From Sphingobium yanoikuyae (lineage in GTDB: Bacteria; Pseudomonadota; Alphaproteobacteria; Sphingomonadales; Sphingomonadaceae), in contig NZ_CP053021.1 of NCBI RefSeq assembly GCF_013001025.1, forward strand, positions 4,409,001-4,473,000: 64,000 nucleotides of DNA, written 5' to 3'. A program made the position numbers and the translations under genes. Shown here in pieces: positions 33,847 through 51,380 of the stretch. How positions within the stretch are numbered: position 1 is the first letter of the stretch; the number at the start of each line of letters is the position of its first letter. The notes beneath the pieces are model-generated. The model did no database searches. It worked only from the letters and a program-made list of their open reading frames with translations, and was not told the DNA's origin.

Positions 33847-33946
33847 ATTGGGGGCATCGCAGAATCTGGTCGTAAACGATGGAGTGGATGGCTCCCGCTC
33901 ACCGGCTGAGGCAGACTGCCTCGGCTGAAGAGCGAGGAGACGGACG

Positions 33947-34981
33947 ATGAGTGAGATTGTCACGATTGGGCTGGATATCGCGAAGTCGGTGTTCCAGGTC
34001 CATGGTGTAGACGCGGCGGGTCAGGTGGTTGTGACCCGGCAATTGAAGCGCGGACAGATGTTGAAGTTTTTCGCGGCATTGCCTCCGGTTCTGATCGGGA
34101 TCGAAGCCTGCGGAACGGCGCATCACTGGGGTCGGCAGCTCCAGAACCTGGGCCACGACGTAAAACTCATCCCGCCGATCTACGTGAAACCTTACGTCAA
34201 GCGGCAGAAGAACGATGCCGCCGATGCCGAAGCGATTTGCGAGGCGGTGACGCGGCCGACAATGCGGTTCGTCGAAATCAAGTCAGTTGACCAGCAGGCT
34301 GGCGGCGTGCTGCACAAAACGCGGGCACTGCTGATCAAGCAGCGGACGATGATGTTCAATGCCGTGCGCAGCCATCTGGCCGAATTCGGTCTTGTGACGG
34401 GTACCGGCGTGGCGCAGGTGGTGCGCATGGTCGATCGGCTTGCGAAAGGGGACGAACTCGATCTTCCGGAACTGGCGCGCGAGACACTCGGCGTCTTAGC
34501 GCGCCACATTCAGGAACTGCAGGACAAGCTCACCGGGATCGATAAGCAGTTGACCCGCTGGCATTATCGCAACGACGTCAGCAACATCCTTGAAACCATC
34601 CCCGGCGTTGGTGTGATCACCGCCTCGGCGCTCGCGTCGATGGTGACCAACGCGCAGAGCTTCAGGTCGGCCCGCCATTTCGCCGCCTGGCTTGGACTCG
34701 TGCCCCGGCAAAACTCGTCAGGTGGCAAGACCCGCCTGGGCAAGATTACCAAGGGCGGCAATCGCTACCTGCGACAATTGCTGGTCGTCGGTGCGACTTC
34801 AGTGCTGCGGCATGTCCGGGCGGGCAGCGTCAAAGGCTTTGAATGGGCCAAAGCCTTGCTTGATCGCCGTCCGCCCAAGGTCGTGGCCGTTGCTCTGGCC
34901 AACAAGATGGCGCGTATTGCATGGGTGGTGATGACGCGCGGCGTCGAGTATGAAAGAAAGGAATTGGCGATCGCAGCCTGA
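33947..34981 (+). CDS. IS110-family (IS1111-type) transposase
   Basis: A 344-residue DEDD recombinase. The N-terminal RuvC-like part starts IGLDIAKSVFQVHGVD (first Asp), with GIEACGTAHHWGRQL (Glu) and VKRQKNDAADAEAICEA (Asp pair). The C-terminal Transposase_20 part has ILETIPGVGVITASALAS, FAAWLGLVPRQNSSGGK and GGNRYLRQLLVVGA, with the conserved Ser in the NSSGGK region. The frame is intact. A GAGGAGACGG ribosome site precedes the ATG. Confidence 0.94.
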   Translation: MSEIVTIGLDIAKSVFQVHGVDAAGQVVVTRQLKRGQMLKFFAALPPVLIGIEACGTAHHWGRQLQNLGHDVKLIPPIYVKPYVKRQKNDAADAEAICEAVTRPTMRFVEIKSVDQQAGGVLHKTRALLIKQRTMMFNAVRSHLAEFGLVTGTGVAQVVRMVDRLAKGDELDLPELARETLGVLARHIQELQDKLTGIDKQLTRWHYRNDVSNILETIPGVGVITASALASMVTNAQSFRSARHFAAWLGLVPRQNSSGGKTRLGKITKGGNRYLRQLLVVGATSVLRHVRAGSVKGFEWAKALLDRRPPKVVAVALANKMARIAWVVMTRGVEYERKELAIAA

Positions 34982-34984
34982 TTG

Positions 34985-35222
34985 GCAGGCGATGGCAAAA
35001 CAAGGTTGAGGTGTGAAGACCGACTGAAGGCAAGCCATTCGATCCACCGAGCTTCGGCAAACCTGCTTAGCGTACAGGACTTCGAGTCCGCGTAAACGAT
35101 GAGGAGGCCAGGGCTGGCGGAATCCTTCAAGGCCAGCAGCCGTATAAAGGCTGCACATAAAGGCCGGACACGCGACTGCACTCGATATGGCATGTCAGAA
35201 CGTCAGAAAATCGCACCGCAAC
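34985..35222 (+). ncRNA. Candidate bridge/seek RNA of the IS110 element
   Basis: This is the non-coding 3' end of an IS1111-type element, where the guide RNA of this group is encoded. Hairpin GGACT-TCG-AGTCC (35077-35089) is flanked by AGCGTAC (35069-35075), complementary to GTACGCT at 35242-35248 just right of the element, and by CGTAAACGATG (35091-35101), identical to 33871-33881 just left of it. A further stem GCTGGC/GCCAGC follows. The layout fits a target-binding loop. RNA ends and expression are not known. Confidence 0.55.
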
Positions 35223-35290
35223 GCGGGAGCCATCCACACGCGTACGCTCTCATGACTGCCATCTGAGATGCTGACCGAGTTTACCTCTTC

Positions 35291-35308
35291 GCTGGCCGCA
35301 AGGCCAGC
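35291..35308. repeat. Perfect hairpin, 7-bp stem with GCAA loop
   Basis: GCTGGCC-GCAA-GGCCAGC followed by GTTTGC. It could be a weak terminator or a REP-like palindrome; the loop is the same as in the palindrome at 8608. Confidence 0.5.
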
Positions 35309-35563
35309 GTTTGCATTGACCTTGGCGGGTGTGCCGCGGACGCCTGATCGACGACGATTGATCGTGCTCTCATCCGCGGGTTGGTTACCGCACTACCCGT
35401 ATCCGTCGCTGGGCCTATCCTCCGTCTAAGTTCGGGCGTCGGACGAACCTGCCCCACCGTACACCGTGGATTGCCCATCACAGTCGGGTGCCCGCGGCAC
35501 GCCGGCCAAGGCTATGCAGATGGTGCGCTGGCGCCTCCTGTTGTCGTAATCGTTGTACGTGGA

Positions 35564-35728
35564 TCAGCCAGCCATCGCCGGTGACACCCGACGTGCAATG
35601 TCCCAGGCATAGCCGACCAATTCACGCGCGATTGCAGTAGTCACTTTCGGCTGCGGCTTGCCAGTGGATGCCAGGCGTCGGTAGCGCTGACCCCAACAGA
35701 GATGCCCCGCGGCCTTGGAAGAGGTCGA
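35564..35728 (-). pseudogene. C-terminal relic of an IS110-family transposase
   Basis: The minus-strand frame reads GHLCWGQRYRRLASTGKPQP, then KVTTAIARELVGYAWDIARR, a typical C-terminal segment of IS110-family transposases, before a stop at 35564. The frame is closed by a TAG just upstream of 35728 and no N-terminal part is present. It differs from the intact IS110 element 0.3 kb away, so it is a remnant of another copy type. Confidence 0.7.
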
Positions 35729-36199: not shown

Positions 36200-38242
36200 A
36201 TGACCCCGACAAAACTACTCATTGGACAACTCATCATAGTGCTGGCGATCATCATCGCGGGCATTTGGACAGCGACACAATGGGCGGCAGCGCAGCTCGC
36301 TTATCAGCCGGAGCTTGGCGCCCCCTGGTTCGTCTTGCTGGGCCAGCCGATCTATCATCCCTGGTCGATCTTTCCCTGGTGGTTTTCGTTCGACGCCTAT
36401 GCGCCCGTCGTCTTCGACAAGGCCGGTGCCATCGCAGCCGCTGGCGGCTTCGTTGCCTGCGGCGCGGCGATCTTCGGTTCGGTATGGCGTGCGCGCCAGT
36501 CCAAAAACCTGACCACCTATGGCTCGGCCCGCTGGGCAACGCGCCGGGACATCAAGGGTGCCGGGCTCCTCGACCAGCGCGGCGTCGTGCTGGGGAGGAT
36601 CGACCGCGATGACTTGCGCCACGATGGGCCCGAACATGTCATGGCGTTTGCGCCCACCCGGTCGGGCAAGGGGGTCGGCCTTGTCATTCCAACCCTGCTG
36701 TCCTGGACCGGCTCGACAGTCGTCCACGACATCAAGGGCGAGAACTGGCAGCTGACCGCCGGCTGGCGCGCGCGCTTCTCGCACTGCCTGCTGTTCAATC
36801 CGACCGACGCTCGCTCGGCGCGCTACAATCCGCTGCTCGAGGTCCGGCGCGGGGTGAATGAAGTCCGCGACGTCCAGAATATCGCCGACATCCTGGTGGA
36901 TCCTGAAGGGGCGCTTGAACGTCGCAACCACTGGGAGAAGACCAGCCATTCGCTGCTGGTCGGCGCAATCCTCCATGTCCTCTACGCCGAGGAAGAGAAG
37001 ACGCTCGCGCGCGTCGCGACTTTCCTCTCCGACCCGCAACGCAGCTTTGCCACCACCCTGCGCCGAATGATGGCCACCAACCATCTCGGTACGCCAGATG
37101 TACCGCAGGTCCACCCGGTGGTCGCCTCTGCCGCCCGTGAACTACTCAACAAGAGCGAGAACGAGCGCTCCGGGGTGCTGTCGACCGCCATGTCGTTTCT
37201 TGGCCTCTATCGAGACCCGACCGTCGCAGCGGTAACTGCCGCCTCCGACTGGCGCATCGCCGATCTCGTCGGAGCGGCGCATCCGATCTCGCTTTACCTC
37301 GTCGTGCCGCCGTCCGACATCAGCCGCACCAAGCCGCTGGTTCGCCTCATCCTCAACCAGATCGGCCGCCGGCTGACCGAGGAATTGCAAGGCGTCGGCA
37401 AGGACGGCGAGACCGCACAAGGCCGACATCGGTTGCTGATGATGCTCGACGAATTCCCGGCGCTGGGAAGGCTCGACTTCTTCGAGACGAGTCTCGCTTT
37501 CCTGGCAGGCTACGGGGTGCGCGCCTTCCTGATCGCGCAGAGCCTGAACCAGATCGAGAAGGCCTATGGCGAGCACAACGCCATTCTCGACAATTGCCAT
37601 GTCCGCGTCGCCTTTGCGACCAACGACGAGCGAACCGCCAAGCGGATCTCGGACGCGCTTGGTACGGCGACCGAACAGCGCGCGATGCGCAACTATGCGG
37701 GGCATCGGCTCGCGCCCTGGCTCGCGCACGTCATGGTCAGCCGCCAGGAGACGGCGCGGGCTCTGCTGACGCCCGGCGAGGTGATGCAGCTTGCGCCCAC
37801 CGATGGGCTGGTCCTGATCTCCGGGCACCCCCCGATACGCGTGAAGAAGCTGCGCTATTACGAGGATCGCCGGTTCAAGGAGCGGCTCTTGCCTGCACCG
37901 ACACTGGATGGCGCTGCCTATCGTGACCTTCCGGCAGCTCGCCCGGATGACTGGGCTGGGCAGGTTCGCGGTGCTGACATTCGCCTCTCCGAAGGCAATG
38001 ACGCCGATGAAGGCACCGACGCCGGCGGCCTCGAACAGGCTCGTCACCCCGCGCACGACATCGAACCTGCGGTCGTCCTCGAGCCGGAGGTCGCCGACCC
38101 ACTGGGCCTTGGCGAAGACGATGACGATCAGGCTGCCGAGCGCCGCGCCATGGATCGGGTGCAGCAGCTCGGCACCGTGCGCACGGTCTACGGCCTCGAT
38201 GCCGCCTCCAGTCGCCCCGACGACCTCCAGCTGGGATTTTGA
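36200..38242 (+). CDS. traG: Type IV coupling protein TraG/VirD4
   Basis: A 680-residue inner-membrane ATPase that would link the relaxosome to the mating channel. Two N-terminal membrane segments (LIIVLAIIIAGIWTATQW and ~residues 78-96) come first. Then come NLTTYGSARWATRRDIKGAG, Walker A FAPTRSGKGVGLVIPTLLSW, VVHDIKGENW and Walker B LLMMLDEFPALGRLDFF. The acidic C-terminal ~110 residues (EDDDDQAAERR) are variable. GGCGGAGG precedes the ATG. It heads the transfer operon and overlaps the next frame. The relaxase gene normally found nearby is absent. Confidence 0.95.
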   Translation: MTPTKLLIGQLIIVLAIIIAGIWTATQWAAAQLAYQPELGAPWFVLLGQPIYHPWSIFPWWFSFDAYAPVVFDKAGAIAAAGGFVACGAAIFGSVWRARQSKNLTTYGSARWATRRDIKGAGLLDQRGVVLGRIDRDDLRHDGPEHVMAFAPTRSGKGVGLVIPTLLSWTGSTVVHDIKGENWQLTAGWRARFSHCLLFNPTDARSARYNPLLEVRRGVNEVRDVQNIADILVDPEGALERRNHWEKTSHSLLVGAILHVLYAEEEKTLARVATFLSDPQRSFATTLRRMMATNHLGTPDVPQVHPVVASAARELLNKSENERSGVLSTAMSFLGLYRDPTVAAVTAASDWRIADLVGAAHPISLYLVVPPSDISRTKPLVRLILNQIGRRLTEELQGVGKDGETAQGRHRLLMMLDEFPALGRLDFFETSLAFLAGYGVRAFLIAQSLNQIEKAYGEHNAILDNCHVRVAFATNDERTAKRISDALGTATEQRAMRNYAGHRLAPWLAHVMVSRQETARALLTPGEVMQLAPTDGLVLISGHPPIRVKKLRYYEDRRFKERLLPAPTLDGAAYRDLPAARPDDWAGQVRGADIRLSEGNDADEGTDAGGLEQARHPAHDIEPAVVLEPEVADPLGLGEDDDDQAAERRAMDRVQQLGTVRTVYGLDAASSRPDDLQLGF

Positions 38243-38244
38243 TC

Positions 38245-38646
38245 ATGGAAAAGATCCGCCATCAGCTGTTCCTGCCCAAGTCGGTGTCCGATCGGCTGGA
38301 AGCGCTTGCCGCCAGGCCCGGCGCCAGCAAGTCGGCCATCCTCGTCGATGCAGTCACGGCTTGGCTCAATCGCCGGGGGGCATCGGAGCTGGAGGATCGG
38401 TTCGCGATTCGCCTCGACCGGCTTACGCAGGCGATCGGCCGGGTCGATCGCGACACCTATGTGATCCTCGAGACGCTCGCCCTCTTCATCCGGTTCGAAC
38501 TCGCGATCCAGACGCCGCTGGCCGAAAACGACCAGGCGGGCCGGGCGCTCGGAGCCAAGAGGTTCGAAGCCTTCGTGACCCAGGTCGGTCGGCAAGTGTC
38601 GACCGGGCGGCGCACCCTGGCTGGTTCTTCGGAGAATGGCGAATGA
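38245..38646 (+). CDS. Ribbon-helix-helix (CopG-type) conjugal transfer regulator
   Basis: 133 residues from ATG 38245. The N-terminal ~45 (MEKIRHQLFLPKSVSDRLEA, ASKSAILVDAVTAWL) have the RHH pattern: a short strand, then two helices. The rest is helical. A gene of this type between traG and trbB is usual in trb clusters of alphaproteobacterial ICEs and probably controls transfer. It overlaps trbB by 4 bases (ATGA). Confidence 0.82.
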   Translation: MEKIRHQLFLPKSVSDRLEALAARPGASKSAILVDAVTAWLNRRGASELEDRFAIRLDRLTQAIGRVDRDTYVILETLALFIRFELAIQTPLAENDQAGRALGAKRFEAFVTQVGRQVSTGRRTLAGSSENGE

Positions 38647-39692
38647 GCGGCCGCCCAGCCACCGCAGGGCCGGTAATCTCGGCTGAGCGCCGTCGCCGGA
38701 TGCTGATTACGGCGCTGGGCAGCGACATTGCTGCGGCGATGCGCGACAGCCAAGTCACCGAGATCATGGTGAACCCCGACGGGGCGCTGCGGCTCGATCG
38801 TCTTGGCGAAGGCCGTATCGATACCGAGGTCCGCATCGAGCCCGATCAGGTCGAGCGGATCATTCGACTGGTGGCGAGCCATGTCCGGGCCGAGGTCCAT
38901 GCCGATCACCCGATCCTATCGACAGAGTTGCCGCCGCATATCGAGGGCCGCGCCGGCGAGCGCTTCGAAGGCGTGCTGCCCCCCGTGTCGTCGGCACCCT
39001 GCTTCTCGATCCGCAAGCCTGCCACGAGGCTGCACACGCTCGACGACTATATCGCCGATGGGCTGATGTCGGAGGTCCAGGCGGACGCCCTGCGTGCCGC
39101 GGTCGCCCAGCGCTGCAACATCCTCGTCGCCGGAGGTACCAGCTCGGGCAAGACGACCCTCGCCAATGCGCTGCTCGCCGAGATGGCCCCAAAACATTCG
39201 GGGCTCGATAGCCGCGTGATCCTCATCGAGGACACGCGCGAGCTGCAGTGCCCGCTGCCCGACACCGTCGCGCTCCGCACCCGCCCGCCGCACGTGTCGA
39301 TGACCGAGCTGGTGCGCTCGACCATGCGCCTGCGTCCCGACCGCATCGTGGTCGGCGAGGTCCGCGGTCCCGAAGCGCTCGACATGCTCAAGGCCTGGAA
39401 CACCGGTCACCCCGGCGGGATCGCGACCGTCCACGCCAACAGCGCCATCGCCGCGCTCTACCGCATAGAACAGCTATGCCAAGAGACGGTCGTCACCGTG
39501 CCGCGCCAGCTGATCGCCGAGGCCATCGACATCATCGTCTTTATCTCCGGGCGCGGCATCGACCGCCGCGTCTCCATGATCGCGCGTGTCGCCGGGCTCG
39601 ACCCCGACACAGGCGCCTACGCGCTCGCCGATCTTCCCAAGCCCAATCCCCCAAAGCCCAATCTGCCCCAGTCTAGCCCGAAGGAGACCTGA
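38643..39692 (+). CDS. trbB: Conjugal transfer ATPase TrbB (VirB11-like)
   Basis: 349 residues from ATG 38643, which overlaps the preceding stop; the longer open frame to 37908 lies inside traG. A secretion NTPase: VTEIMVNPDGALRLDRLGEG in the N-terminal domain, Walker A LVAGGTSSGKTTLANALLAE, the Asp box RVILIEDTRELQC, Walker B MRLRPDRIVVGEVRGPEAL and the His box HPGGIATVHANS. It powers pilus and channel assembly at the inner membrane. The C-terminus is Pro/Lys-rich. Confidence 0.95.
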   Translation: MSGRPATAGPVISAERRRRMLITALGSDIAAAMRDSQVTEIMVNPDGALRLDRLGEGRIDTEVRIEPDQVERIIRLVASHVRAEVHADHPILSTELPPHIEGRAGERFEGVLPPVSSAPCFSIRKPATRLHTLDDYIADGLMSEVQADALRAAVAQRCNILVAGGTSSGKTTLANALLAEMAPKHSGLDSRVILIEDTRELQCPLPDTVALRTRPPHVSMTELVRSTMRLRPDRIVVGEVRGPEALDMLKAWNTGHPGGIATVHANSAIAALYRIEQLCQETVVTVPRQLIAEAIDIIVFISGRGIDRRVSMIARVAGLDPDTGAYALADLPKPNPPKPNLPQSSPKET

Positions 39693-39695
39693 CCC

Positions 39696-40037
39696 ATGAC
39701 TTTTGCCCGCATTCCCCGCCGCATCGCCAACCGCTCGTCGCTTCTCGGCGGCGCGATCAGCCTCGCGCTGACGCTCGCCACCCAGGTCCAGGCGGCCGGA
39801 TCCGGCATGCCGTGGGAAGAACCACTGCAACAGGTGTTGGAATCCGTGCAGGGCCCGGTAGCCAAGATCGTCGCCGTTATCATCATTATCGTGACCGGCC
39901 TGACGCTCGCTTTCGGCGAGAGTGCGGGCGGGTTCCGGCGGCTGATCCAGATCGTCTTCGGCCTCTCCATCGCCTTCGCCGCCTCGAGTTTCTTCCTGTC
40001 CTTCTTCAGCTTCGGCGGCGGAGCATTGATCTCGTGA
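39696..40037 (+). CDS. trbC: TrbC/VirB2-family pilin
   Basis: A 113-residue pilin precursor. The long signal region (RSSLLGGAISLALTLATQVQA) is followed by GSGMPWEEPLQQVLESVQGP and two hydrophobic segments (VAKIVAVIIIIVTGLTLAF and IQIVFGLSIAFAASSFFLSF), the normal VirB2 layout. It is 3 bases after trbB. The stop overlaps the GTG start of trbD. Confidence 0.9.
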   Translation: MTFARIPRRIANRSSLLGGAISLALTLATQVQAAGSGMPWEEPLQQVLESVQGPVAKIVAVIIIIVTGLTLAFGESAGGFRRLIQIVFGLSIAFAASSFFLSFFSFGGGALIS

Positions 40038-40318
40038 CCGGCCCCATGTCCTCCGGAGCTCAGCATATCGCCGGCTACGAAGTGCCGATCCATGGCTCGC
40101 TGGGTTCGCCGCTACTGCTCGGCGGCGCACCGCGGGGCCTCGCGATCGTCAACGGGACGCTTGCGGCGGCGGTCGGTCTCGGCCTCCAGCAATGGCTGGC
40201 CGGGCTGCTGCTCTGGGCCGTTGGGCACAGCATCGCCGTGATGGCCGCGCGCCGCGACCCGAGCTTCGCGCCCGTCCTGCTCCGCCACATCCGCCAGAAG
40301 GGATATTTTGCATGCTGA
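40034..40318 (+). CDS. trbD: TrbD (VirB3-like) membrane protein
   Basis: 94 residues from a GTG at 40034 that overlaps the trbC stop; ATG 40046 is the alternative. YEVPIHGSLGSPLLLGGAPR is the conserved N-terminal segment, followed by two hydrophobic helices (GLAIVNGTLAAAVGLGLQ and WLAGLLLWAVGHSIAVM). RRDPSFAPVLLRHIRQKGYF ends the protein. It overlaps trbE by 7 bases. Confidence 0.9.
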   Translation: MTGPMSSGAQHIAGYEVPIHGSLGSPLLLGGAPRGLAIVNGTLAAAVGLGLQQWLAGLLLWAVGHSIAVMAARRDPSFAPVLLRHIRQKGYFAC

Positions 40319-42777
40319 GCCTGCGCGAATATCGCGACCGCGCCGAACGCCTTGCCGACCATCTGCCGTGGGCGGCGCTGGTGGCGCCGGGTGTCGTGCT
40401 GAACAAGGATGGCAGCTTCCTTCGGGTGCTGGCCTTCCGTGGTCCGGATCTCGAATCCGCGACCGAAGCCGAACTGGTCGCCGCCTGCGCGCGGGCGAAT
40501 AATGCGCTGAAGCGCTTCGGCAGCGGCTGGGCCTTGTTCTTCGACGCGGAACGTCGCGAGGCGCTGGCCTATCCCGACAGTGATTTCCCCGATGCGGCGA
40601 GCTGGCTGGTCGATGGCGAGCGGCAGGCGGCGTTCGAGGCCGAAGGCACGCATTTCGAGAGCCGCTACCACCTGACCCTGACCTGGTTGCCGCCTGCGGA
40701 CACCACCGATCGCGCTGGCCGCTCGCTCGTCGAGCGCCCCGACGGTGATCGGACACGCGACTGGCGCGGTGCGCTGCAAAGCTTCATCGCCGAAACCGAC
40801 CGCATGCTCGACCTGCTCTCGGGTTTCATGGCCGATGTGCGCCCGCTCGACGACGGCGAGACGCTGACCTTCCTCCACGGCACGATCTCGGATCGTCGAC
40901 ACCCGGTCGTGGCGCCCGAGACGCCGATGTATCTCGACGGCATCCTTGCCGACACACCACTGGTCGGCGGATTGGAGCCGAAGCTCGGTGAGCTGCAAGT
41001 CCGGACGCTCACTATCCTCGGATTCCCGAGCCTGAGCCGTCCCGGCATCCTCGACGCGCTCAACCATCAGGATTTCGGCTATCGCTGGGTCACGCGCTTC
41101 ATCGCGCTGGACAAGACGCTGGCGACCAAGACGCTGACCTCTCTCCGGCGACAGTGGTTCAACAAGCGCAAGTCGGTCACCGCGCTGCTGCGCGAGGTGC
41201 TCTACAACTCGCCGGCGCAACTGTTAGACAGCGACGCCGACAATAAGGTGGTCGATGCCGACCTCGCGCTTCAGGCGCTCGGCGGCGACCATGTCGCCTT
41301 TGGCTATCTGACTACCACGATCACTGTGACGGATCGGAACCGCGCTGCAGTCGAGGACAAGGTTCGCGCCGTCGAGCGGGTCGTCAACGGCCTCGGCTTC
41401 ATCTGCGTGCGCGAAACCGTGAACGCGGTCGAGGCATGGCTCTCGTCGCTCCCGGGGCATGTCTATGCCAATGTCCGGCAGCCGCTGGTCCATACCCTCA
41501 ACCTCGCCCACCTAATGCCGCTATCGTCGGTATGGGCAGGGCCGGTGCGCAACGGGCATCTCGACGGCCCGCCGCTGCTGGTCGCCAAGACGGCTGGCTC
41601 GACCCCATTCCGGCTTTCCACCCATGTCGGCGACGTCGGTCATATGATGGTCGTGGGGCCGACGGGCGCGGGCAAATCGGTGCTGCTCAGCCTGATCGCG
41701 TTCCAGTTTCGCCGTTACCCTGGCGCGCAGGTTTACATCTTCGACAAGGGGAACAGCGCTCGGGCTGCGGTGCTGGCAATGGGCGGGGCGCATCATGCCT
41801 TGGGCTCGGCGGATACTGATGTCGAAGCACTGGCCTTCCAGCCGCTCGCCAATATCGACGATGCGGCCGAGCGTAGCTGGGCGGCGGAGTGGATCGCGGC
41901 GCTGCTCACCCGTGAGAACGTGCCCGTCACGCCCGAAGTGAAGGACGCGGTCTGGACTGCGCTCGGCAGCCTCGCATCGGCACCGCGCGAGGAGCGGACA
42001 ATGACCGGGCTCGCGCTGCTGCTCCAGTCGAACGCGCTGCGGATCGCGCTCCAGCCCTACACGCTCGAAGGGCCGCACGGCAGACTGCTCGATGCAGCCG
42101 AACAACAACTCGCCCTGGCCGATGTCCAGTGTTTCGAAACCGAGGCGCTGATGGGCCAGACCGGAGCGGTCGCGCCGGTGCTGACCTATCTCTTCCACCG
42201 GCTGGAGGAGCGGTTCGACGGCCGGCCGACCCTGCTCATCCTCGACGAAGCCTGGATCTTCCTCGACCACCCGCTGTTCGCCGCACGCATCCGCGAGTGG
42301 CTGAAGGTGCTGCGCAAGAAGAACGTCGCGGTGCTGTTCGCAACGCAGAGTCTTGCCGACATTGCCGGATCGGCGATCGCGCCCGCCATCATCGAGAGCT
42401 GCCCGCAACGCATCCTGCTGCCCAATGATCGCGCGATCGAGCCGCAGGGCCATGACATCTATGCGCGCTTCGGCCTCAACGACCGGCAGATCGAGCTGAT
42501 CGCGAGAGCCAACCCCAAGCGGCACTATTACCTCCAGTCCGCGCGCGGCAACCGGCTGTTCGAACTGGGGCTCGGCCCCGTCGCCCTGACGCTGTGCGGT
42601 TCTTCCGATCCGGCCGCGCAGGCGCGGATCGATGCCGCGCTCGCCGAACATGGCCGCAAGCATTTCGCCGAAGCCTTCCTGCGCGACGCGGGTCTCGCCT
42701 GGGCTGCCGATCTCGCCGCCGATTTCCCCGCTCCAACTGCTCCCGTTCCCTCAGCCCCTCAAGAAGGAGAAGAGTAA
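40312..42777 (+). CDS. trbE: Conjugal transfer ATPase TrbE (VirB4-like)
   Basis: 821 residues from ATG 40312 (MLSLREYRDRAERLADHLPW); the upstream open frame overlaps trbD and is not conserved. The N-terminal VirB4 domain is followed by Walker A MMVVGPTGAGKSVLLSLIAF and Walker B PTLLILDEAWIFLDH, then VLFATQSLADIAGSAIAPAI. It is the main assembly ATPase of the channel. Length is normal for TrbE, and the TAA shares one base with the trbJ ATG. Confidence 0.95.
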   Translation: MLSLREYRDRAERLADHLPWAALVAPGVVLNKDGSFLRVLAFRGPDLESATEAELVAACARANNALKRFGSGWALFFDAERREALAYPDSDFPDAASWLVDGERQAAFEAEGTHFESRYHLTLTWLPPADTTDRAGRSLVERPDGDRTRDWRGALQSFIAETDRMLDLLSGFMADVRPLDDGETLTFLHGTISDRRHPVVAPETPMYLDGILADTPLVGGLEPKLGELQVRTLTILGFPSLSRPGILDALNHQDFGYRWVTRFIALDKTLATKTLTSLRRQWFNKRKSVTALLREVLYNSPAQLLDSDADNKVVDADLALQALGGDHVAFGYLTTTITVTDRNRAAVEDKVRAVERVVNGLGFICVRETVNAVEAWLSSLPGHVYANVRQPLVHTLNLAHLMPLSSVWAGPVRNGHLDGPPLLVAKTAGSTPFRLSTHVGDVGHMMVVGPTGAGKSVLLSLIAFQFRRYPGAQVYIFDKGNSARAAVLAMGGAHHALGSADTDVEALAFQPLANIDDAAERSWAAEWIAALLTRENVPVTPEVKDAVWTALGSLASAPREERTMTGLALLLQSNALRIALQPYTLEGPHGRLLDAAEQQLALADVQCFETEALMGQTGAVAPVLTYLFHRLEERFDGRPTLLILDEAWIFLDHPLFAARIREWLKVLRKKNVAVLFATQSLADIAGSAIAPAIIESCPQRILLPNDRAIEPQGHDIYARFGLNDRQIELIARANPKRHYYLQSARGNRLFELGLGPVALTLCGSSDPAAQARIDAALAEHGRKHFAEAFLRDAGLAWAADLAADFPAPTAPVPSAPQEGEE

Positions 42778-43532
42778 TGCGTATCCCCACCCGAAAGCAC
42801 CTGATTGCGGCCGTTCTCGGCCTCGGTTCCGTCGCCTCGTTCGGCATGGGCGTGGTCACGATGACGGCGACGCCGGCCCATGCGCAGTTTGGCGGCGTTG
42901 TGTTCGATCCGAGCAACTATGCGCAGAACATCCTGACCGCCGCGCGCACCCTGCAGAGCGTCAACCAGCAGATCCAGCAGCTTCAGAACGAGGCGCAGAT
43001 GCTGGTCAACATGGGCAAGAACCTCACCCGCATCGACTTCCCGCAGCTCGAAGCCCTCAAGCAGAAGCTGGCCGAGATCGACCGGCTGATGGGCCGCGCG
43101 CAGGCGATCGACTTCCGGGTCGATCAGCTCGACGACAAGTTCCAGTCGCTGTTCCCGCAGGATTTCTCGTCAGCGCTGCGGACCGATGCCCGCGTCCGAG
43201 ATGCCCGCGCTCGGCTCGATGCCAGCATGGGCGCGTTCCGCCAGACGATGACGGTGCAGGCACAGGTCGTCGAGAACATCCAGACCGACACCGAAGCCCT
43301 CGCTGACATCGTCGCGCGCAGCCAGGGCGCAGAAGGGTTGCTTCAGGCACAGCAGGCGACCAACCAGATTCTCGCCCTGACGGCCAAGCAGCAGTTCCAG
43401 CTCCAGCACATGATGGCCGCGCAGTTCCGCAGCGAGGCGATCGAACAGACGCGGCGCGCGACGCAGGCTGCGGAAGCCCGCGCGGCTACGAAGAAGTTCC
43501 TCGGTTCCGGATCGGCCTACACGCCGCGCTAG
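42777..43532 (+). CDS. trbJ: TrbJ (VirB5-like) conjugal transfer protein
   Basis: 251 residues from ATG 42777 with AAGGAGAAGAG just before it. The N-terminal signal ends near ATPAHAQ. FDPSNYAQNILTAARTLQSV and QQIQQLQNEAQMLVNMGKNL are typical TrbJ, and the rest is coiled and helical (LAEIDRLMGRAQAIDFRVDQ). It is exported to the periplasm as a minor pilus component. The usual trbK lipoprotein gene is not found after it; a strong hairpin stands there instead. Confidence 0.92.
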   Translation: MRIPTRKHLIAAVLGLGSVASFGMGVVTMTATPAHAQFGGVVFDPSNYAQNILTAARTLQSVNQQIQQLQNEAQMLVNMGKNLTRIDFPQLEALKQKLAEIDRLMGRAQAIDFRVDQLDDKFQSLFPQDFSSALRTDARVRDARARLDASMGAFRQTMTVQAQVVENIQTDTEALADIVARSQGAEGLLQAQQATNQILALTAKQQFQLQHMMAAQFRSEAIEQTRRATQAAEARAATKKFLGSGSAYTPR

Positions 43533-43597
43533 CCCCCAGCGGCCGCAAGCCGATCCGGTCAGCGGTCGTCGGCATCCCCCTCTAGCCGTCGATTGCC

Positions 43598-43638
43598 GTC
43601 GCGGGGCGTGGCGCCGCTCCCCAGCTGCGCCCCGCGAC
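43598..43638 (+). promoter_or_regulatory. Strong GC hairpin between trbJ and trbL
   Basis: A perfect 11-bp inverted repeat, GTCGCGGGGCG / CGCCCCGCGAC, with a 19-nt loop in the only sizeable gap (134 bases) of the trb operon. There is no T-run. It could stabilise upstream mRNA ends or reduce downstream expression. trbK, expected here, is missing. Confidence 0.5.
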
Positions 43639-43666
43639 ACCCCTTCGCTCCAGCAGGAAATCGCAC

Positions 43667-44989
43667 TTGAACGACCTCAATGTCATCGATCGCTTCCTGC
43701 AGGCGTTCATCACCTACATCGACAGCGGGTTCGGCCTGCTCGGTCCGGATGTCGGATTTCTCACCGCGACGCTGATTGGCATCGACATCACGCTTGCCGG
43801 CCTGTTCTGGGCGATGGGCGGCGAGGACAATGTCATCGGCCGCTTCCTCAAGAAGATCCTCTACGTCGGCGCGTTCGCGTTCATCCTGAACAGCTTTTCG
43901 ACGCTGGCCGACATCATCTTCCGCTCCTTCGCACAGGCGGGTCTGACCGCGGGCGGCGGCACGCTGTCGGCTGACGACTTGCTCAAACCGGGACGACTCG
44001 CGGGCACGGGCTTTTCAGCGGCGTGGCCGCTGCTCGAACAGGCGAGCGAGATGGTCGGGTTCACGACCTTCTTCGACAACTTCCTGACGATCATGATCCT
44101 ACTGTTCGCCTGGGCGCTGGTGATCGTCGCCTTCTTCATCCTCGCGGTGCAGATGTTCATCTGCATCCTCGAGTTCAAGCTGACGAGCCTTGCTGGGTTC
44201 ATCCTCGTGCCGTTCGCCTTGTGGAACCGCACCAGCTTCCTCGCCGAGCGGGTGCTCGGCAACGTGGTCAGCTCCGGCATCAAGGTCATGGTGCTCGCCG
44301 TCATCGTCGGCATAGGCTCCAACTTCTTCACCGACTTCACCGACGCGCTCCAGGGCCAGGAGCCGGACATCGGGCAGGCAATGAGCCTCGTCCTCGCCAG
44401 CCTGTCGCTGTTCGGTCTCGGCATCTTCGGACCGGCGATAGCATCAGGGCTGGTCTCCGGCGCCCCGCAGCTTGGTGCCGGCGCTGCGCTCGGCACAGCG
44501 GTTGGCGCGGCCGGCATCACCATGCTGGCTGGCGGCGCTGCCGCTGGCGGTGCCCGCGCACTTGGCGGCGCGGCGCTGGGCGCGGTCCGATCGGGGACGG
44601 CGATGGGGTCGGCGGCATCGACCGCCTACCAACTTGGCAAGGAAACCGCCGCATCCCCATCGGTCGGCGCCGGCCTCGGCGGCGTTGCGCGCGCTGCCGG
44701 GAATGCCGCGCGGTCGCGTGTCAGCGGATCGTTGATTCTTGGTGAAGCCGCAGCCGGCGGCCGGCAAGCAGCATGGAGCGCGCTCAACCAGAACTCGACC
44801 CAAGGTTCTTCGGCGCCGTCTTCGGGTGGACCGGGCGGCGGCGGGGAGACCGGCGGCACGCCCGCATGGGCACGCGCGATGAGAGCCGAGCAGTCCAGCC
44901 GCCACCGTCGCCAGCTCGCGATCCACACGCTCCAGCAAGGTGATCGCGGCGGCGCGTCCGCCACCCCCGACATCAAGGAAAGGGACTAA
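43667..44989 (+). CDS. trbL: TrbL (VirB6-like) membrane protein
   Basis: 440 residues from a TTG at 43667 with AGGAAA upstream (NDLNVIDRFLQAFITYIDSG). Residues ~25-270 carry about six hydrophobic helices, among them FLTATLIGIDITLAGLFWAM, FLTIMILLFAWALVIVAFFI and LTSLAGFILVPFALWNRTSF. The C-terminal 170 residues are Gly/Ala/Ser-rich and hydrophilic, as in other TrbL proteins. It forms part of the inner-membrane channel. Confidence 0.92.
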   Translation: MNDLNVIDRFLQAFITYIDSGFGLLGPDVGFLTATLIGIDITLAGLFWAMGGEDNVIGRFLKKILYVGAFAFILNSFSTLADIIFRSFAQAGLTAGGGTLSADDLLKPGRLAGTGFSAAWPLLEQASEMVGFTTFFDNFLTIMILLFAWALVIVAFFILAVQMFICILEFKLTSLAGFILVPFALWNRTSFLAERVLGNVVSSGIKVMVLAVIVGIGSNFFTDFTDALQGQEPDIGQAMSLVLASLSLFGLGIFGPAIASGLVSGAPQLGAGAALGTAVGAAGITMLAGGAAAGGARALGGAALGAVRSGTAMGSAASTAYQLGKETAASPSVGAGLGGVARAAGNAARSRVSGSLILGEAAAGGRQAAWSALNQNSTQGSSAPSSGGPGGGGETGGTPAWARAMRAEQSSRHRRQLAIHTLQQGDRGGASATPDIKERD

Positions 44990-44992
44990 TCC

Positions 44993-45820
44993 ATGTTTTT
45001 CAAGCGAAGTGCGCAGCGCTATGGGCGCACCCCACCACCCGAGACGCCCTACCAGCGCGCAGGCCAGCTCTGGGACGACCGGATCGGCGCGGCCCGGGTG
45101 CAGGCACGCAACTGGCGGCTGATGGCATTCGGCTGTCTCGCGCTCACCGCAGGCACGTCGGCGGGGCTTGCATGGCAATCCTTGCAGAGCCGCGTCATGC
45201 CCTATGTGGTCGAGGTCGATCGACTTGGGGAGGCCCGCGCCATCGAGGCTGCCGATGTCGAATACCGGCCGACCGATCCGCAAGTCGCGTGGCATCTCTC
45301 GCACTTCATCACGAACGTCCGATCGGTGTCGCTCGACCCCGTGCTGATGCGCCGTGACTGGCTCGAAGCCTATGACTTCACGACCAAGCGTGGCGCGCAG
45401 TTCCTAGGAGAATATGCCCGATCGGCATCGCCGTTCGCCAATGTCGGCGAGCGCACAGTCTCGGTGCAGGTCACCAGCGTCGTTCGCGCCTCGGACAAGT
45501 CATTCCAGGTAAAGTGGACGGAGACGGCGTTTGAGCGCGGGTCGCAGGCTGGAACCAGCCGCTGGACGGCCATCCTCACGACCGTCACGCGCCCGCCGGC
45601 CTCGGCCGATGTGTTGCGCAAGAACCCGCTCGGCATCTACGTCGACGCAATCGACTGGAGCCGCGAACTCGACACGGCATCGCCCCCGCCCCCGCCGCCA
45701 GCGATCAAGCCGGCACCGCAACCAGACCCGAACCTTCCGCTCGGATCCCCGCTCGATCCCACGCTGGGCAGCAAGTCGGACGCACCAAGTCTGTCCAATT
45801 CGCAGGAGAAGAACCCATGA
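44993..45820 (+). CDS. trbF: TrbF (VirB8-like) conjugal transfer protein
   Basis: 275 residues. ETPYQRAGQLWDDRIGAARV precedes a membrane segment (LMAFGCLALTAGTSAGLAW). The periplasmic VirB8 domain follows (VMPYVVEVDRLGEARAIEAA, SFQVKWTETAFERGS, RKNPLGIYVDAIDWSREL). The C-terminal tail is Pro-rich. It overlaps trbG by 4 bases. Confidence 0.94.
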   Translation: MFFKRSAQRYGRTPPPETPYQRAGQLWDDRIGAARVQARNWRLMAFGCLALTAGTSAGLAWQSLQSRVMPYVVEVDRLGEARAIEAADVEYRPTDPQVAWHLSHFITNVRSVSLDPVLMRRDWLEAYDFTTKRGAQFLGEYARSASPFANVGERTVSVQVTSVVRASDKSFQVKWTETAFERGSQAGTSRWTAILTTVTRPPASADVLRKNPLGIYVDAIDWSRELDTASPPPPPPAIKPAPQPDPNLPLGSPLDPTLGSKSDAPSLSNSQEKNP

Positions 45821-46653
45821 AGGCTACCATTTTGCCGGCGATCGCCGGAATGCTCCTCGCGTACCCTGCGCTCGCTCAGGAGCGCCCTGTATCACCGCTC
45901 AAGACCGTCCGCTCGGCAACACGCAACGCCACGATCGAGCCGGCGTCCACCGGGTTCGTAAGCGGGGCGCAGGTCTACCCGTTCAGTGAGGGCACGATCT
46001 TTCAGGTCTATGCCGCGCCCGGGTTGGTCACCGACATCATGCTCCAGCCTGGCGAGAATCTCGTAGCGGTCGCAAGCGGCGATACCGCGCGCTGGGTGAT
46101 CGGCGATACCACCAGCGGCTCCGGCGAGACCAAGCGGACGCATCTCTTGGTGAAGCCCTTCTCGGGCGGTCTCGTCACCAATCTTGTCGTGACGACGGAC
46201 CGTCGCACCTACCATGTCCGGCTGGTCAGCACCGCGGCGACTGCGCTGTCGTCGATGCGCTGGACCTATCCGCAGGACGAGTTGCTCGCGCTCCGACGCA
46301 AGGCGGAAGCCGATCGAGCTGCCGCGCCGGTCGCCACGGGACTTTCGGTCGAAACGCTTCACTTCAACTACGCAATCAGCGGCGACAGGCCGGGATGGCG
46401 TCCGCTGCGTGCTTTCGACGACGGCCAGCGGACCTATGTCGAGTTTCCCGCATCGCTGGCGAGCAACGAGGCTCCGCCGCTGTTTCTCGTCGATCGCGAG
46501 GGCAAGGCCGAACTGGTGAACTACCGGCTGAGCGGCCGCTTCTACGTCGTCGACCGGATCTTCGACGCCGCCGAACTTCGGCTCGGTCTCAAGAAGCAGC
46601 AGATCGTGCGCATCGACCGGATCGCGCCATCGGCTAAGCGGAGGGGCGCATGA
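45817..46653 (+). CDS. trbG: TrbG (VirB9-like) conjugal transfer protein
   Basis: 278 residues with a signal peptide ending near YPALAQE. TGFVSGAQVYPFSEGTIFQV, PGLVTDIMLQPGENL, THLLVKPFSGGLVTNLVVTT and DRRTYHVRLVST form the N-terminal domain. The C-terminal LHFNYAISGD, GQRTYVEFP and VNYRLSGRFYVVDRIF form the CagX/VirB9 domain. It is an outer-membrane-associated core component. It overlaps trbI by 4 bases. Confidence 0.94.
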   Translation: MKATILPAIAGMLLAYPALAQERPVSPLKTVRSATRNATIEPASTGFVSGAQVYPFSEGTIFQVYAAPGLVTDIMLQPGENLVAVASGDTARWVIGDTTSGSGETKRTHLLVKPFSGGLVTNLVVTTDRRTYHVRLVSTAATALSSMRWTYPQDELLALRRKAEADRAAAPVATGLSVETLHFNYAISGDRPGWRPLRAFDDGQRTYVEFPASLASNEAPPLFLVDREGKAELVNYRLSGRFYVVDRIFDAAELRLGLKKQQIVRIDRIAPSAKRRGA

Positions 46654-47852
46654 CCGACGCCACCGCAACCGCGTCAGCCGCATCGGGCTCTCCGCCCCAG
46701 TCCGGTCCGGCAAAGCTCGATCCCGAGACTTTGGCCATTCGCTCACGGCCGGCGCGTGCGATCCGCTTCCGCAAGGGTGCGATCATCGGTATCGCGGCGC
46801 TTGGATCGGTCAGCCTGATGGGGATCGCCTGGATGGCGCTCAAGCCGCAGGTGTTCCGGCAGGTCGCCCAGGAAAGCGAACTGTCGCAACCGACGTCGAA
46901 GTCGGCGTCCGACGCGCTCTCCGGCCTGCCGTCCAGTTACGGCGACGCGCCGAAGCTCGGACCACCACTTCCCGGCGATCTCGGTCGACCGATCCTTCGG
47001 GCGCAGCAGCAAGCGGAGGGCGTGGTCCGGCCCGCGCGGGTCGATACCGCCGAAGCCGAACGTCAGCAGCGCCTCGCCGATCTAAAGTCCGCGCGGGAAT
47101 CGGGATTGATGGCGCAGGTGCAATCGAGCCGTGCTGCTCCCGTCTCGCCGGCCGTCGATCCGTCTGCAGGCGGTCCCGGCACGCCGCCAGCGCCCACCGC
47201 AACCGGCACCCGCAAGGAGCAATTCGCGTCCGCGCGCGACAGGGACGGCGACCTCAATTCCGGCAGTTTGGTCGCGCAGGTCTCGCCGAACAGCCTGCTC
47301 GCCGGCAGCGTCATCGCGGCAAGCCTGATCACCGGGCTGAACTCCGACCTGCCCGGCATGGTCACGGCGCAGGTGACGAAGAACGTCTTCGACACGGTGA
47401 CGGGGAATATTCTGCTCGTACCGCAAGGTGCCCGCCTGATCGGCAAATATGATTCCGTCGTCGCGTTCGGACAGCGTCGCGCATTGGTCGTGTGGCAGCG
47501 CCTGATCCTGCCCGATGGCGGTTCGATCCGGCTCGACAACATGCCCGCGACTGATCCTGCGGGCTACGCGGGTCTGACCGACAAGGTCGACTTCCACACC
47601 TGGACGCTGCTCAAAGGCGTCGCGATCGCCACTCTGCTCGGGGTCGGCTCGGAACTGTCGATCTCAGGTGAAAGCGATCTCGTCCAGGCGATTCGCGAAT
47701 CCGCCCAATCGAACACGGCGCGGGCCGGCGACCAGATCACCCAGCGCAATCTGGATATCCAGCCCACCATCACGATCCGGCCGGGTGCGCCGGTTCGCGT
47801 GCTGGTGATCCGCGACCTAATCCTTGCGCCGTGGCGCGGAAAGGCAAGCTGA
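46650..47852 (+). CDS. trbI: TrbI (VirB10-like) conjugal transfer protein
   Basis: 400 residues. A cytoplasmic Ala/Ser/Pro-rich N-terminus leads to one membrane helix (GAIIGIAALGSVSLMGIAWM) and a Pro-rich periplasmic linker. The conserved C-terminal TrbI domain follows: GSVIAASLITGLNSDLPGMV, TAQVTKNVFDTVTGNILLVP, GARLIGKYDSVVAFGQRRAL and NLDIQPTITIRPGAPVRVLV. It spans both membranes in the core complex. Confidence 0.95.
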   Translation: MTDATATASAASGSPPQSGPAKLDPETLAIRSRPARAIRFRKGAIIGIAALGSVSLMGIAWMALKPQVFRQVAQESELSQPTSKSASDALSGLPSSYGDAPKLGPPLPGDLGRPILRAQQQAEGVVRPARVDTAEAERQQRLADLKSARESGLMAQVQSSRAAPVSPAVDPSAGGPGTPPAPTATGTRKEQFASARDRDGDLNSGSLVAQVSPNSLLAGSVIAASLITGLNSDLPGMVTAQVTKNVFDTVTGNILLVPQGARLIGKYDSVVAFGQRRALVVWQRLILPDGGSIRLDNMPATDPAGYAGLTDKVDFHTWTLLKGVAIATLLGVGSELSISGESDLVQAIRESAQSNTARAGDQITQRNLDIQPTITIRPGAPVRVLVIRDLILAPWRGKAS

Positions 47853-50084: not shown

Positions 50085-51314
50085 TCATCCTACCCGCCTA
50101 GCACTCGGGAAATTGCCCTGCAACACCTTGCCCCCGTCTCGTAGGATATCGAGATAGTCGGACCAGTGCTGCATCATAACCACGCGCTCATCCCAATATT
50201 CGCCGCGTGCGTAGGCGCGCCGGACTTGATTGGTGTCCACATGTGCAAGCTGGCGCTCGATCGCATCGGGATTCCACTGGCCCATCTCGTTGAGCAGGGT
50301 AGCCGCCATCGCCCGAAAGCCATGCGCGGTCATCTCGTTGGTTGTGTAGCCAAGCTTGCGGAGGCCCTGGTTGACCGCATTCTCCGACATCGCCTTGCGC
50401 GGCTTGCCGAGGCACGGAAACAGGTATTTCCACCAGTGGGTGTGCTCGTGGAGTTCCTTGAGCATCGCGATTACCTGTCGTGACAACGGTACTCGATGCG
50501 GCCGGCGCATCTTCATCCGATCGGCCGGGATGAACCAGACCGCCTCTTCCCAGTCGATGTCGGTCCATTCGGCCTGCCTGAGTTCGCCGGGGCGGAGAAG
50601 AACATGCGGCGACAGCCGCATGGCCATGACCGTCACCTTGTGCCCGCTGTAGCCGTCGATCGCCCGGAGCAGCTTGCCGACCTCGGACGGCCTCGTGATC
50701 GCGGCGAAATGCTTGACCTTCGGCGCTGCGATAGCGCCGCGCAGATCGGCCGCCACGTCCTTGTCGCAGCGAACCGTCGCCACGCCATAGCGGAAGACGC
50801 GGCTCAGCACGCTTCGCATCCGCCGCGCGCTTTCATAGGCTCCGGTAGCCTCGACCTTCCGCAGAACCGCGAGCGCCTCGTGCGGTGTGATCTGCGCGAT
50901 AGGGATGCTGCCGATCACGGGGTACGCTTTCGCAAGTAGCCACGCGATCTTTTCGATCGTCACCTTCGCAAGGCCGTCCCGCTCGCATTTGACGAGCCAT
51001 TCCTCGGCCACCGCCTGGAAGGTGTTGGCCGCAGCATACTTGGCAGCGATGCGAGAGCGCTTCTTCTCCAGTGCAGGATCGATCCCGTTCGCCACGAGCT
51101 TCTTGGCATCGTCGCGCCGGACGCGGGCATCCGCCAAGCTTATGGTCGGCCACCCTCCGAGATGAAGCGTCTTCTGCTTGTCCAAGAAACGGTACTTGAA
51201 GCGCCACAGCTTCGAGCCATTTGGCCGGACGGTGAGATAGAGGCCTTGAGAATCGGAGAGGGCGTACTCCTTGTCCCTCGGCTTGGCGGCGTTGATCTGG
51301 ATGTAGGTCAGCAT
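50085..51314 (-). CDS. int: P4-type tyrosine recombinase (integrase)
   Basis: 409 residues from ATG 51314 (MLTYIQINAAKPRDKEYALS); the open frame to 51368 adds unconserved residues. The N-terminal DUF4102-type arm-binding domain (SDSQGLYLTVRPNGSKLWRF) and the core domain are followed by the catalytic domain: LLRPGELRQAEW (Arg), TAHGFRAMAATLLNE (His-x-x-Arg), LAHVDTNQVRRAYARGEYW (His, then the Tyr nucleophile). It is read away from tRNA-Leu, whose 3' end is 178 bases from the start codon, the normal layout for tRNA-targeting islands. Confidence 0.94.
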   Translation of the reverse strand: MLTYIQINAAKPRDKEYALSDSQGLYLTVRPNGSKLWRFKYRFLDKQKTLHLGGWPTISLADARVRRDDAKKLVANGIDPALEKKRSRIAAKYAAANTFQAVAEEWLVKCERDGLAKVTIEKIAWLLAKAYPVIGSIPIAQITPHEALAVLRKVEATGAYESARRMRSVLSRVFRYGVATVRCDKDVAADLRGAIAAPKVKHFAAITRPSEVGKLLRAIDGYSGHKVTVMAMRLSPHVLLRPGELRQAEWTDIDWEEAVWFIPADRMKMRRPHRVPLSRQVIAMLKELHEHTHWWKYLFPCLGKPRKAMSENAVNQGLRKLGYTTNEMTAHGFRAMAATLLNEMGQWNPDAIERQLAHVDTNQVRRAYARGEYWDERVVMMQHWSDYLDILRDGGKVLQGNFPSARRVG

Positions 51315-51359
51315 GGTCGTTTTCCCAGCAAAGCCGGGTCGATCCGTGGACCACAAAAG

Positions 51360-51380
51360 AACCACCAAAGGGGGGTGGTT
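51360..51380. repeat. Inverted repeat upstream of the integrase gene
   Basis: AACCACC / GGTGGTT arms around a 7-nt loop, between the integrase start and the tRNA. It may be an operator or a recombinase/excisionase binding site. Confidence 0.4.

Follow-up and report, generated by a model that had tools for sequence, protein, structure and literature searches.

In a window of 64,000 nucleotides from Sphingobium yanoikuyae (contig NZ_CP053021.1, positions 4,409,001 to 4,473,000), an insertion sequence (IS) of the IS1111 type carries, in the non-coding region (NCR) downstream of its transposase gene, two short segments that match the DNA on either side of it. This raises the question of whether these segments belong to a guide RNA and which target such an RNA would specify. 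The original prediction, made from the letters of the window alone, took them for target guides that record why the element landed at this place. The analysis presented here indicates that the element is, very probably, an IS1111-family IS whose 3' end encodes a seekRNA-type guide programmed for the 38-bp terminal inverted repeat (IR) of Tn3-family transposons. Its anatomy and ends, its empty site, the agreement of arms with flanks, the covariation of the stems and the Tn3 character of the sites are read from sequence comparison. By analogy with experiments on other IS1111 elements, the RNA would be made, bound by the transposase and would direct insertion. The mechanism thus belongs to a known and published class (seekRNA, bridge RNA); the element itself appears to be new and is unusually well resolved.

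Comparison of empty and occupied sites places the IS at positions 33877-35240 of the window (Table 1), with one junction base shared and hence ambiguous. The transposase matches the profiles PF01548 and PF02371, both above their cut-offs (a DEDD/RuvC-like N-terminal domain and a Transposase_20 C-terminal domain). Its length of 344 residues and its segment GLVPRQNSSG agree with the definition of the IS1111 family, 330-350 residues and the motif GL-P----S(t)G (PMC11187229). The two subterminal inverted repeats (sTIRs, GTGGATGGCTCCCGC) are perfect, and the element ends 7 bp and 3 bp beyond them, as is the rule in this family (PMC11187229). With the downstream NCR, which also measures 256 nt in the near-identical copy L036, these features bear out the assignment to the IS1111 type.

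The two flanks of the IS (33850-33876 and 35241-35248), once joined, equal over their 35 bases an uninterrupted Tn3-family terminal IR. All 35 bases are found at empty sites in NZ_CP029988 (Sphingomonas sp. FARSPH p03) and NZ_CP063841 (Sphingopyxis granuli plasmid), and 34 of the 35 at an uninterrupted site on pMI1 of Sphingobium sp. MI1205. Beside the FARSPH p03 site, where the repeat is a 38-bp GGGGG..ACGCTAAG end, the annotation shows a resolvase-type recombinase as well as a Tn3 transposase; near the pMI1 site, too, a Tn3-family transposase is annotated. The empty site contains both matches to the RNA arms, CGTAAACG on the left (8 bases) and GTACGCT on the right (7 bases), with one G in common; overlapping target matches have been reported for ISEc11 as well (PMC11187229).

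This comparison refines what had been proposed for the arms. AGCGTAC (35069-35075), the hairpin that follows it and GTACGCT (35242-35248) all lie where they had been described. The segment CGTAAACGATG (35091-35101) does repeat directly the 11 bases at 33871-33881, which had been regarded as left flank. Since the 7/3 rule sets the ends of the IS at 33877 and 35240, five of these 11 bases (CGATG) belong to the terminus of the IS itself. The right arm is complementary to the right flank, as proposed, and extends beyond AGCGTAC to the full CTTAGCGTAC. The original prediction was therefore right on the arms, and missed both the identity of the target and the part of the left match that is the element's own.

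Further sites follow the same pattern. Among eight empty Tn3 ends examined on plasmids, six read ..GCTAAA-CAACGCTAAG (L116-L119, L121, L122), one differs by a single change (L123) and one reads ..GCCAGA-CAACGCTAAG (L120). Occupied sites of that type read ..GCTAAA/CGATGGA-sTIR ... sTIR-ACG/CAACGCTAAG, where slashes mark the junctions. The window element was compared with ten copies or fragments among the matches listed: one that lies on a smaller contig in the window's genome (L002), two taken from PLSDB (L004, L005), five found in other genomes (L036-L040), and the fragments L007 (92% over 238 bp) and L021 (100% over 92 bp). The left flank, available in nine of these eleven, resembles by eye the outer Tn3 IR every time; the right flank, also available in nine, shows ACGCT in 9/9 and ACGCTAAG in 7/9. 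TnpA matches occur in the examined flanks of 7/11 copies (fragments only in L002 and L004). Copies with the same arms at unrelated flanks would have spoken against a guide function. The arms are identical in the nine copies where this region could be read, except for one base in L039, and the flanks of these nine are Tn3-type IRs, matched imperfectly.

An arm that resembles a flank could also result from chance or from ancestral likeness, the transposase reading its target by protein contacts alone. Taken by itself, the window element reaches an arm score of 15/20, and the best of 60 shuffles also reaches 15. A match in one element is only suggestive, and it becomes strong with the relatives and with the genome search described below. 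Eighty loci of relatives were fetched; both sTIRs were found in 65 of them, hence 66 elements with that of the window, and the 61 with full flanks were scored. After removal of NCRs at least 90% alike, 42 distinct NCRs remained, L036 standing for the window's type. When the whole NCR was searched freely, the best match for the right arm was located 160-175 nt upstream of the end of the right sTIR in 44/61 elements; for the left arm, this distance was 134-152 nt in 36/61. Zones were fixed after these scores had been seen, the permuted control using identical zones. Over the 42 NCRs, agreement with the element's own flanks was then 6.95/9 for the right arm (permuted, 5.01) and 6.40/9 for the left arm (permuted, 5.02), a level attained by none of 20000 flank permutations, which ignore relatedness. 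L041 (own flanks ranked top) and L044 (rank 7), whose right flanks look composite, were kept in this test; without them (40 NCRs) the count is still 0/20000, and leaving out the whole Tn3-targeting clade (36 NCRs) does not change the outcome. Own flanks were unbeaten by those of any other element in 23/42 cases, several relatives reach 9-10/10 in one arm, and L083 scores 10/10 on both. Arms and flanks thus vary together over 42 distinct NCRs whose targets differ, and RNA-dependent targeting was shown experimentally for other IS1111 elements (PMC11187229). An origin of the match in chance, ancestry or protein contacts alone is therefore scarcely credible. The order of the arms, with the top-strand match 5' of the bottom-strand match, agrees with that described in PMC11187229.

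The left arm often runs on past the target into the left terminus of the IS, which reads CGATG in the window element and TGAT in several relatives. The RNA looks as though it read the left junction; these bases were not counted. Moreover, the left extension opens with a base (C or T) that also opens the right half-site in 62/65 elements (exceptions: L041, L052, L112), which fits a common core of one or two bases. Four relatives from Bradyrhizobium or other Hyphomicrobiales (L087, L095, L107, L110) are flanked by TCCGCTT-like sequence on the left and by TGGC(A/C)C on the right; the L095 site is near-palindromic (TCCGCTTTTGGCACAAAGCGGA) and may be an intergenic repeat serving as target, which would set it apart from Tn3 ends.

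If the arms encode a target, they should be able to find it elsewhere. The 17-mer that combines them, CGTAAACGTACGCTAAG, was searched in 397 genomes from the family to which the window belongs (sphingomonads), with the reversed pattern as control. Exact matches were found at seven sites in four genomes, and the control gave none in the same genomes. At all seven sites a GGGG run begins 21 bp upstream of the 17-mer (22 bp in L167), which corresponds to a 38-bp repeat with the layout of Tn3 ends. The one-base overlap of the arms was chosen with knowledge of the window's empty site, and two of the sites (L172, L173) have the same outside flank; the test is therefore strong, not fully blind or independent. 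In addition, the last three target letters of the right arm (AAG) are absent from the window flank and present in L150, an uninterrupted IR of this type. The window has CTC instead, because another element interrupts the repeat. It follows that the arm is not merely a readout of the local flank.

These bases also bear on the possibility that the IS is carried along as a hitch-hiker within copies of a single transposon and does not target the Tn3 end as such. Related Tn3 ends do recur among the sites, and some may descend from one insertion. However, Tn3-type IRs that differ clearly in sequence hold the IS at a common offset (L001, L002 and the L004/L005/L036-L039 type), with different outside flanks. 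Further Tn3-like IRs, in whose examined flanks TnpA was undetected, hold L042 and L043 at this offset too, and L045 two bases deeper inside. The RNA also encodes IR bases that are absent from the window site. Hitch-hiking is highly improbable, and programming of the guide for the Tn3 end is retained.

The RNA itself was expected to be encoded 3' of the transposase and to hold its two arms in an internal loop around a hairpin. The NCR does carry, among relatives, a conserved and covarying structure consistent with such a predicted RNA. The alignment comprised 34 segments, the window and 33 of the 42 distinct NCRs; L036 (the window's type), L041, L043, L044, L073, L074, L087, L094 and L100 were omitted. 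The consensus structure has 13 pairs, with compensatory changes in 10. In this alignment 91.8% of cells are paired, vs 75.1% in shuffles, and the covariation score is 0.504, vs 0.192 in shuffles and at most 0.111 in slid versions. In the apical hairpin (helix 4), 97.1% of cells are paired and three of four pairs show compensatory changes. Both arms lie, in the consensus, inside the internal loop between a CCC/GGG stem and this hairpin; in the local fold computed from the window sequence by itself, 35062-35064 has 35105-35107 as its partner instead of 35102-35104. A search of Rfam gave no family matching the NCR (one sub-threshold hit elsewhere). The arms thus have the proposed position, and the permutation test over 42 NCRs indicates that they account for the flanks.

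Besides the score of the window element alone, several observations weigh against this interpretation. Both best matches of the free search fall inside the expected zones in only 34/61 elements, and some elements fit poorly, other flanks outscoring their own (20 in L071, 8 in L049, 7 in L044, 6 in L070). Many natural sites fit the arms imperfectly. TnpA was not detected in the examined flanks of 4/11 copies, including the 64 kb of the window, and a TnpA match was found in those of only one of the seven 17-mer sites (L173). As regards the RNA, the scored structure was predicted from the very alignment on which it was scored, and its pair types are in no excess (25 vs 23.1 in shuffles; 81/500). 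Over 106 nt, the fold predicted for the window RNA does not surpass shuffles (z -0.48); over the 49-nt loop region it does (z -2.06, 8/200 shuffles being equally good).

A full bridge-RNA model would add a donor guide to the same RNA, and AGCCAT..TCCAC (35033-35047) had been suggested for this role. Predicted donor nucleotides are described in multi-loops of many IS1111 elements by Durrant et al. (PMC11208160). The window element itself scores 8/11 against its left end, for a shuffle mean of 6.15. Over 42 elements, however, the part of the NCR upstream of the target loop matches the element ends about as well as shuffles do (6.31 vs 6.24 and 6.43 vs 6.17), and the part downstream shows no clear excess either; donor sites in multi-loops might escape this test. 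The suggestion is not supported by it, and a donor guide at this place is unlikely.

It can be proposed that the complex of transposase and RNA would present the two target arms in one internal loop, where the right half-site would be recognised by pairing of its top strand with CTTAGCGTAC, and the left half-site by pairing of its bottom strand with CGTAAACG. The site so specified would be ..CGTAAA^CGTACGCTAAG, in the inner part of the 38-bp Tn3 IR, 27 bp from the outer tip of the transposon. The IS may hop in this way from Tn3 end to Tn3 end, riding with the transposons and their plasmids. The window copy lies inside one Tn3 end that a second IS110-type element also entered.

This second element, IS_B, is a different member of the IS110 group with a 371-residue transposase (WP_004206949-type). 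Its relic begins at 35249 on the minus strand (tblastn, 86% over 50 aligned positions, 35716-35567; blastn, 91.5% at 35241-35689). At 14 IS_B junctions, that of the window included (L152-L159, L161-L165), TACGCT stands directly before IS_B in 13, and 12 have a run of GGGG 34-36 bp ahead of the element; at the opposite junction, seven of the eight ends seen read TAAG and one reads TGAG. The pairs L162/L164 and L155/L157 are likely non-independent. This pattern indicates that IS_B enters the same kind of Tn3 repeat, eight bases further in. Its NCR has GTACG.T and CTTAGA around a possible hairpin as candidate arms for this site. A relative of IS_B with a 380-residue transposase, IS_C, has seven copies in the genome of the window, one of them truncated (L144-L149). 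The left flank of IS_C ends in TTAG in 7/7 and the right flank starts with AGCGTA in 5/7; three of the seven adjoin a Tn3-like IR, with the same surroundings, and are perhaps one event copied. Its NCR shows CGTACG and CTTAGA around a possible hairpin. IS_B and IS_C are set apart by transposase length and by weak similarity to the window transposase (26% over 244 residues), not by a tree.

The features of the locus are collected in Table 1. To the right of the IS, which lies on the largest contig, conjugation genes (TraG, TrbE, TrbL, VirB8, TrbI; 36200-47852) and a tyrosine integrase (50085-51368) suggest an integrative conjugative element.

Table 1. Features of the IS1111-type element and its Tn3-family target, in window coordinates.
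Feature	Positions	Strand	Basis
Outer 27 bp of Tn3-family terminal IR, left of the IS	33850..33876	+	35/35 match of joined flanks
Left terminal extension CGATGGA, 7 bp	33877..33883	+	Empty/occupied comparison, 7/3 rule
Left sTIR	33884..33898	+	15/15 inverted repeat
IS1111-type transposase, 344 residues	33947..34981	+	PF01548, PF02371
3' NCR, 256 nt, with right sTIR at its end	34982..35237	+	Coordinates; equal length in L036
Predicted target-guide internal loop, closing stem 35062-35064/35102-35104	35062..35104	+	Consensus structure, window and 33 relatives
Right-target arm CTTAGCGTAC, complement of GTACGCTAAG in Tn3 IR	35066..35075	+	Arm-flank scoring, 17-mer search
Apical hairpin GGACT-TCG-AGTCC	35077..35089	+	Helix 4 of consensus structure
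Left-target arm CGTAAACG, followed by ATG, which the left terminus of the IS also has	35091..35098	+	Empty site comparison
Right sTIR	35223..35237	+	15/15 inverted repeat
Right terminal extension ACG, 3 bp	35238..35240	+	Empty/occupied comparison
Inner part of the same Tn3 IR, CGTACGCT	35241..35248	+	Empty sites, 35/35 match
IS_B relic: 3' NCR and last 48 residues of the 371-residue transposase	35249..35716	-	tblastn, blastn

Targeting of Tn3 ends has been published for IS4321 and IS5075, which, like the window element, have the IS1111 anatomy and insert inside terminal IRs of the Tn3 family, those of Tn21 type (PMC8269217). The IS5075 transposase is 39% identical to that of the window. In the one IS5075 copy compared, the orientation within the IR is opposite and, with the 7/3 rule assumed, the offset from the outer tip is 23 bp instead of 27 bp. 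A tree of 37 rows, its relatives hand-picked among those fetched, gives good support (100/99) to a clade of the window lineage with L041-L045. It rejects a single clade of the window lineage and IS5075 by the approximately unbiased test (p-AU 0.012), the branch of IS5075 being long. The label of Tn3 targeting was assigned on this tree by reading flanks; L048 was omitted for its broken transposase translation (10 X in 336 residues) and its branch length of 10. A single origin of Tn3 targeting for the window clade and IS5075 was considered, and is disfavoured, for this sample of relatives, by this p-AU value and by the 39% identity.

On balance, we lean slightly towards the view that Tn3 IRs are an evolutionary attractor. 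At least three IS110/IS1111 lineages would have been reprogrammed independently onto the 38-bp repeat, at three offsets and in both orientations: the IS1111 clade of sphingomonads and rhizobia, IS4321/IS5075 of enterics, and IS_B/IS_C (371-380 residues). They would be RNA-guided hyperparasites carried by Tn3 transposons, which they may immobilise; if so, immobilisation would come from breaking the end of the transposon, and two such elements share one repeat in the window. A suggestive reading of sequence has in any case become a computationally tested pair of guide and target, whose RNA predicts Tn3 ends in further genomes, and some 40 natural relatives that differ in their arms provide a ready reprogramming series. 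The apparent convergence makes two ideas testable, that Tn3 ends offer a safe harbour, a term used for IS5075 (PMC8269217), and that RNA-guided elements shut down the transposons that carry them. Among the records listed by a literature search that covered few subscription papers and not ISfinder, there was no report of this element or of alphaproteobacterial IS110/IS1111 elements targeting Tn3 ends.

The bridge RNA of IS621, a member of the IS110 group, has a layout of left and right guides. Closer to the window element stand ISEc11, ISPa11, ISKpn4 and ISPst6, which also have a downstream NCR with two short target matches, the top-strand match 5' of the bottom-strand match (PMC11187229). These four differ in having other targets and in that their seekRNA has been demonstrated (PMC11187229), whereas that of the window element is deduced. 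As for IS621, its bridge RNA resembles the window RNA in presenting target guides in an internal loop (PMC11208160). Finally, the RNAs of the IS110 group come from the left end of the element and include a donor loop (PMC11208160), whereas the window RNA would be encoded at the right end, with no detectable donor loop and its two arms directed to the end of a Tn3 transposon.
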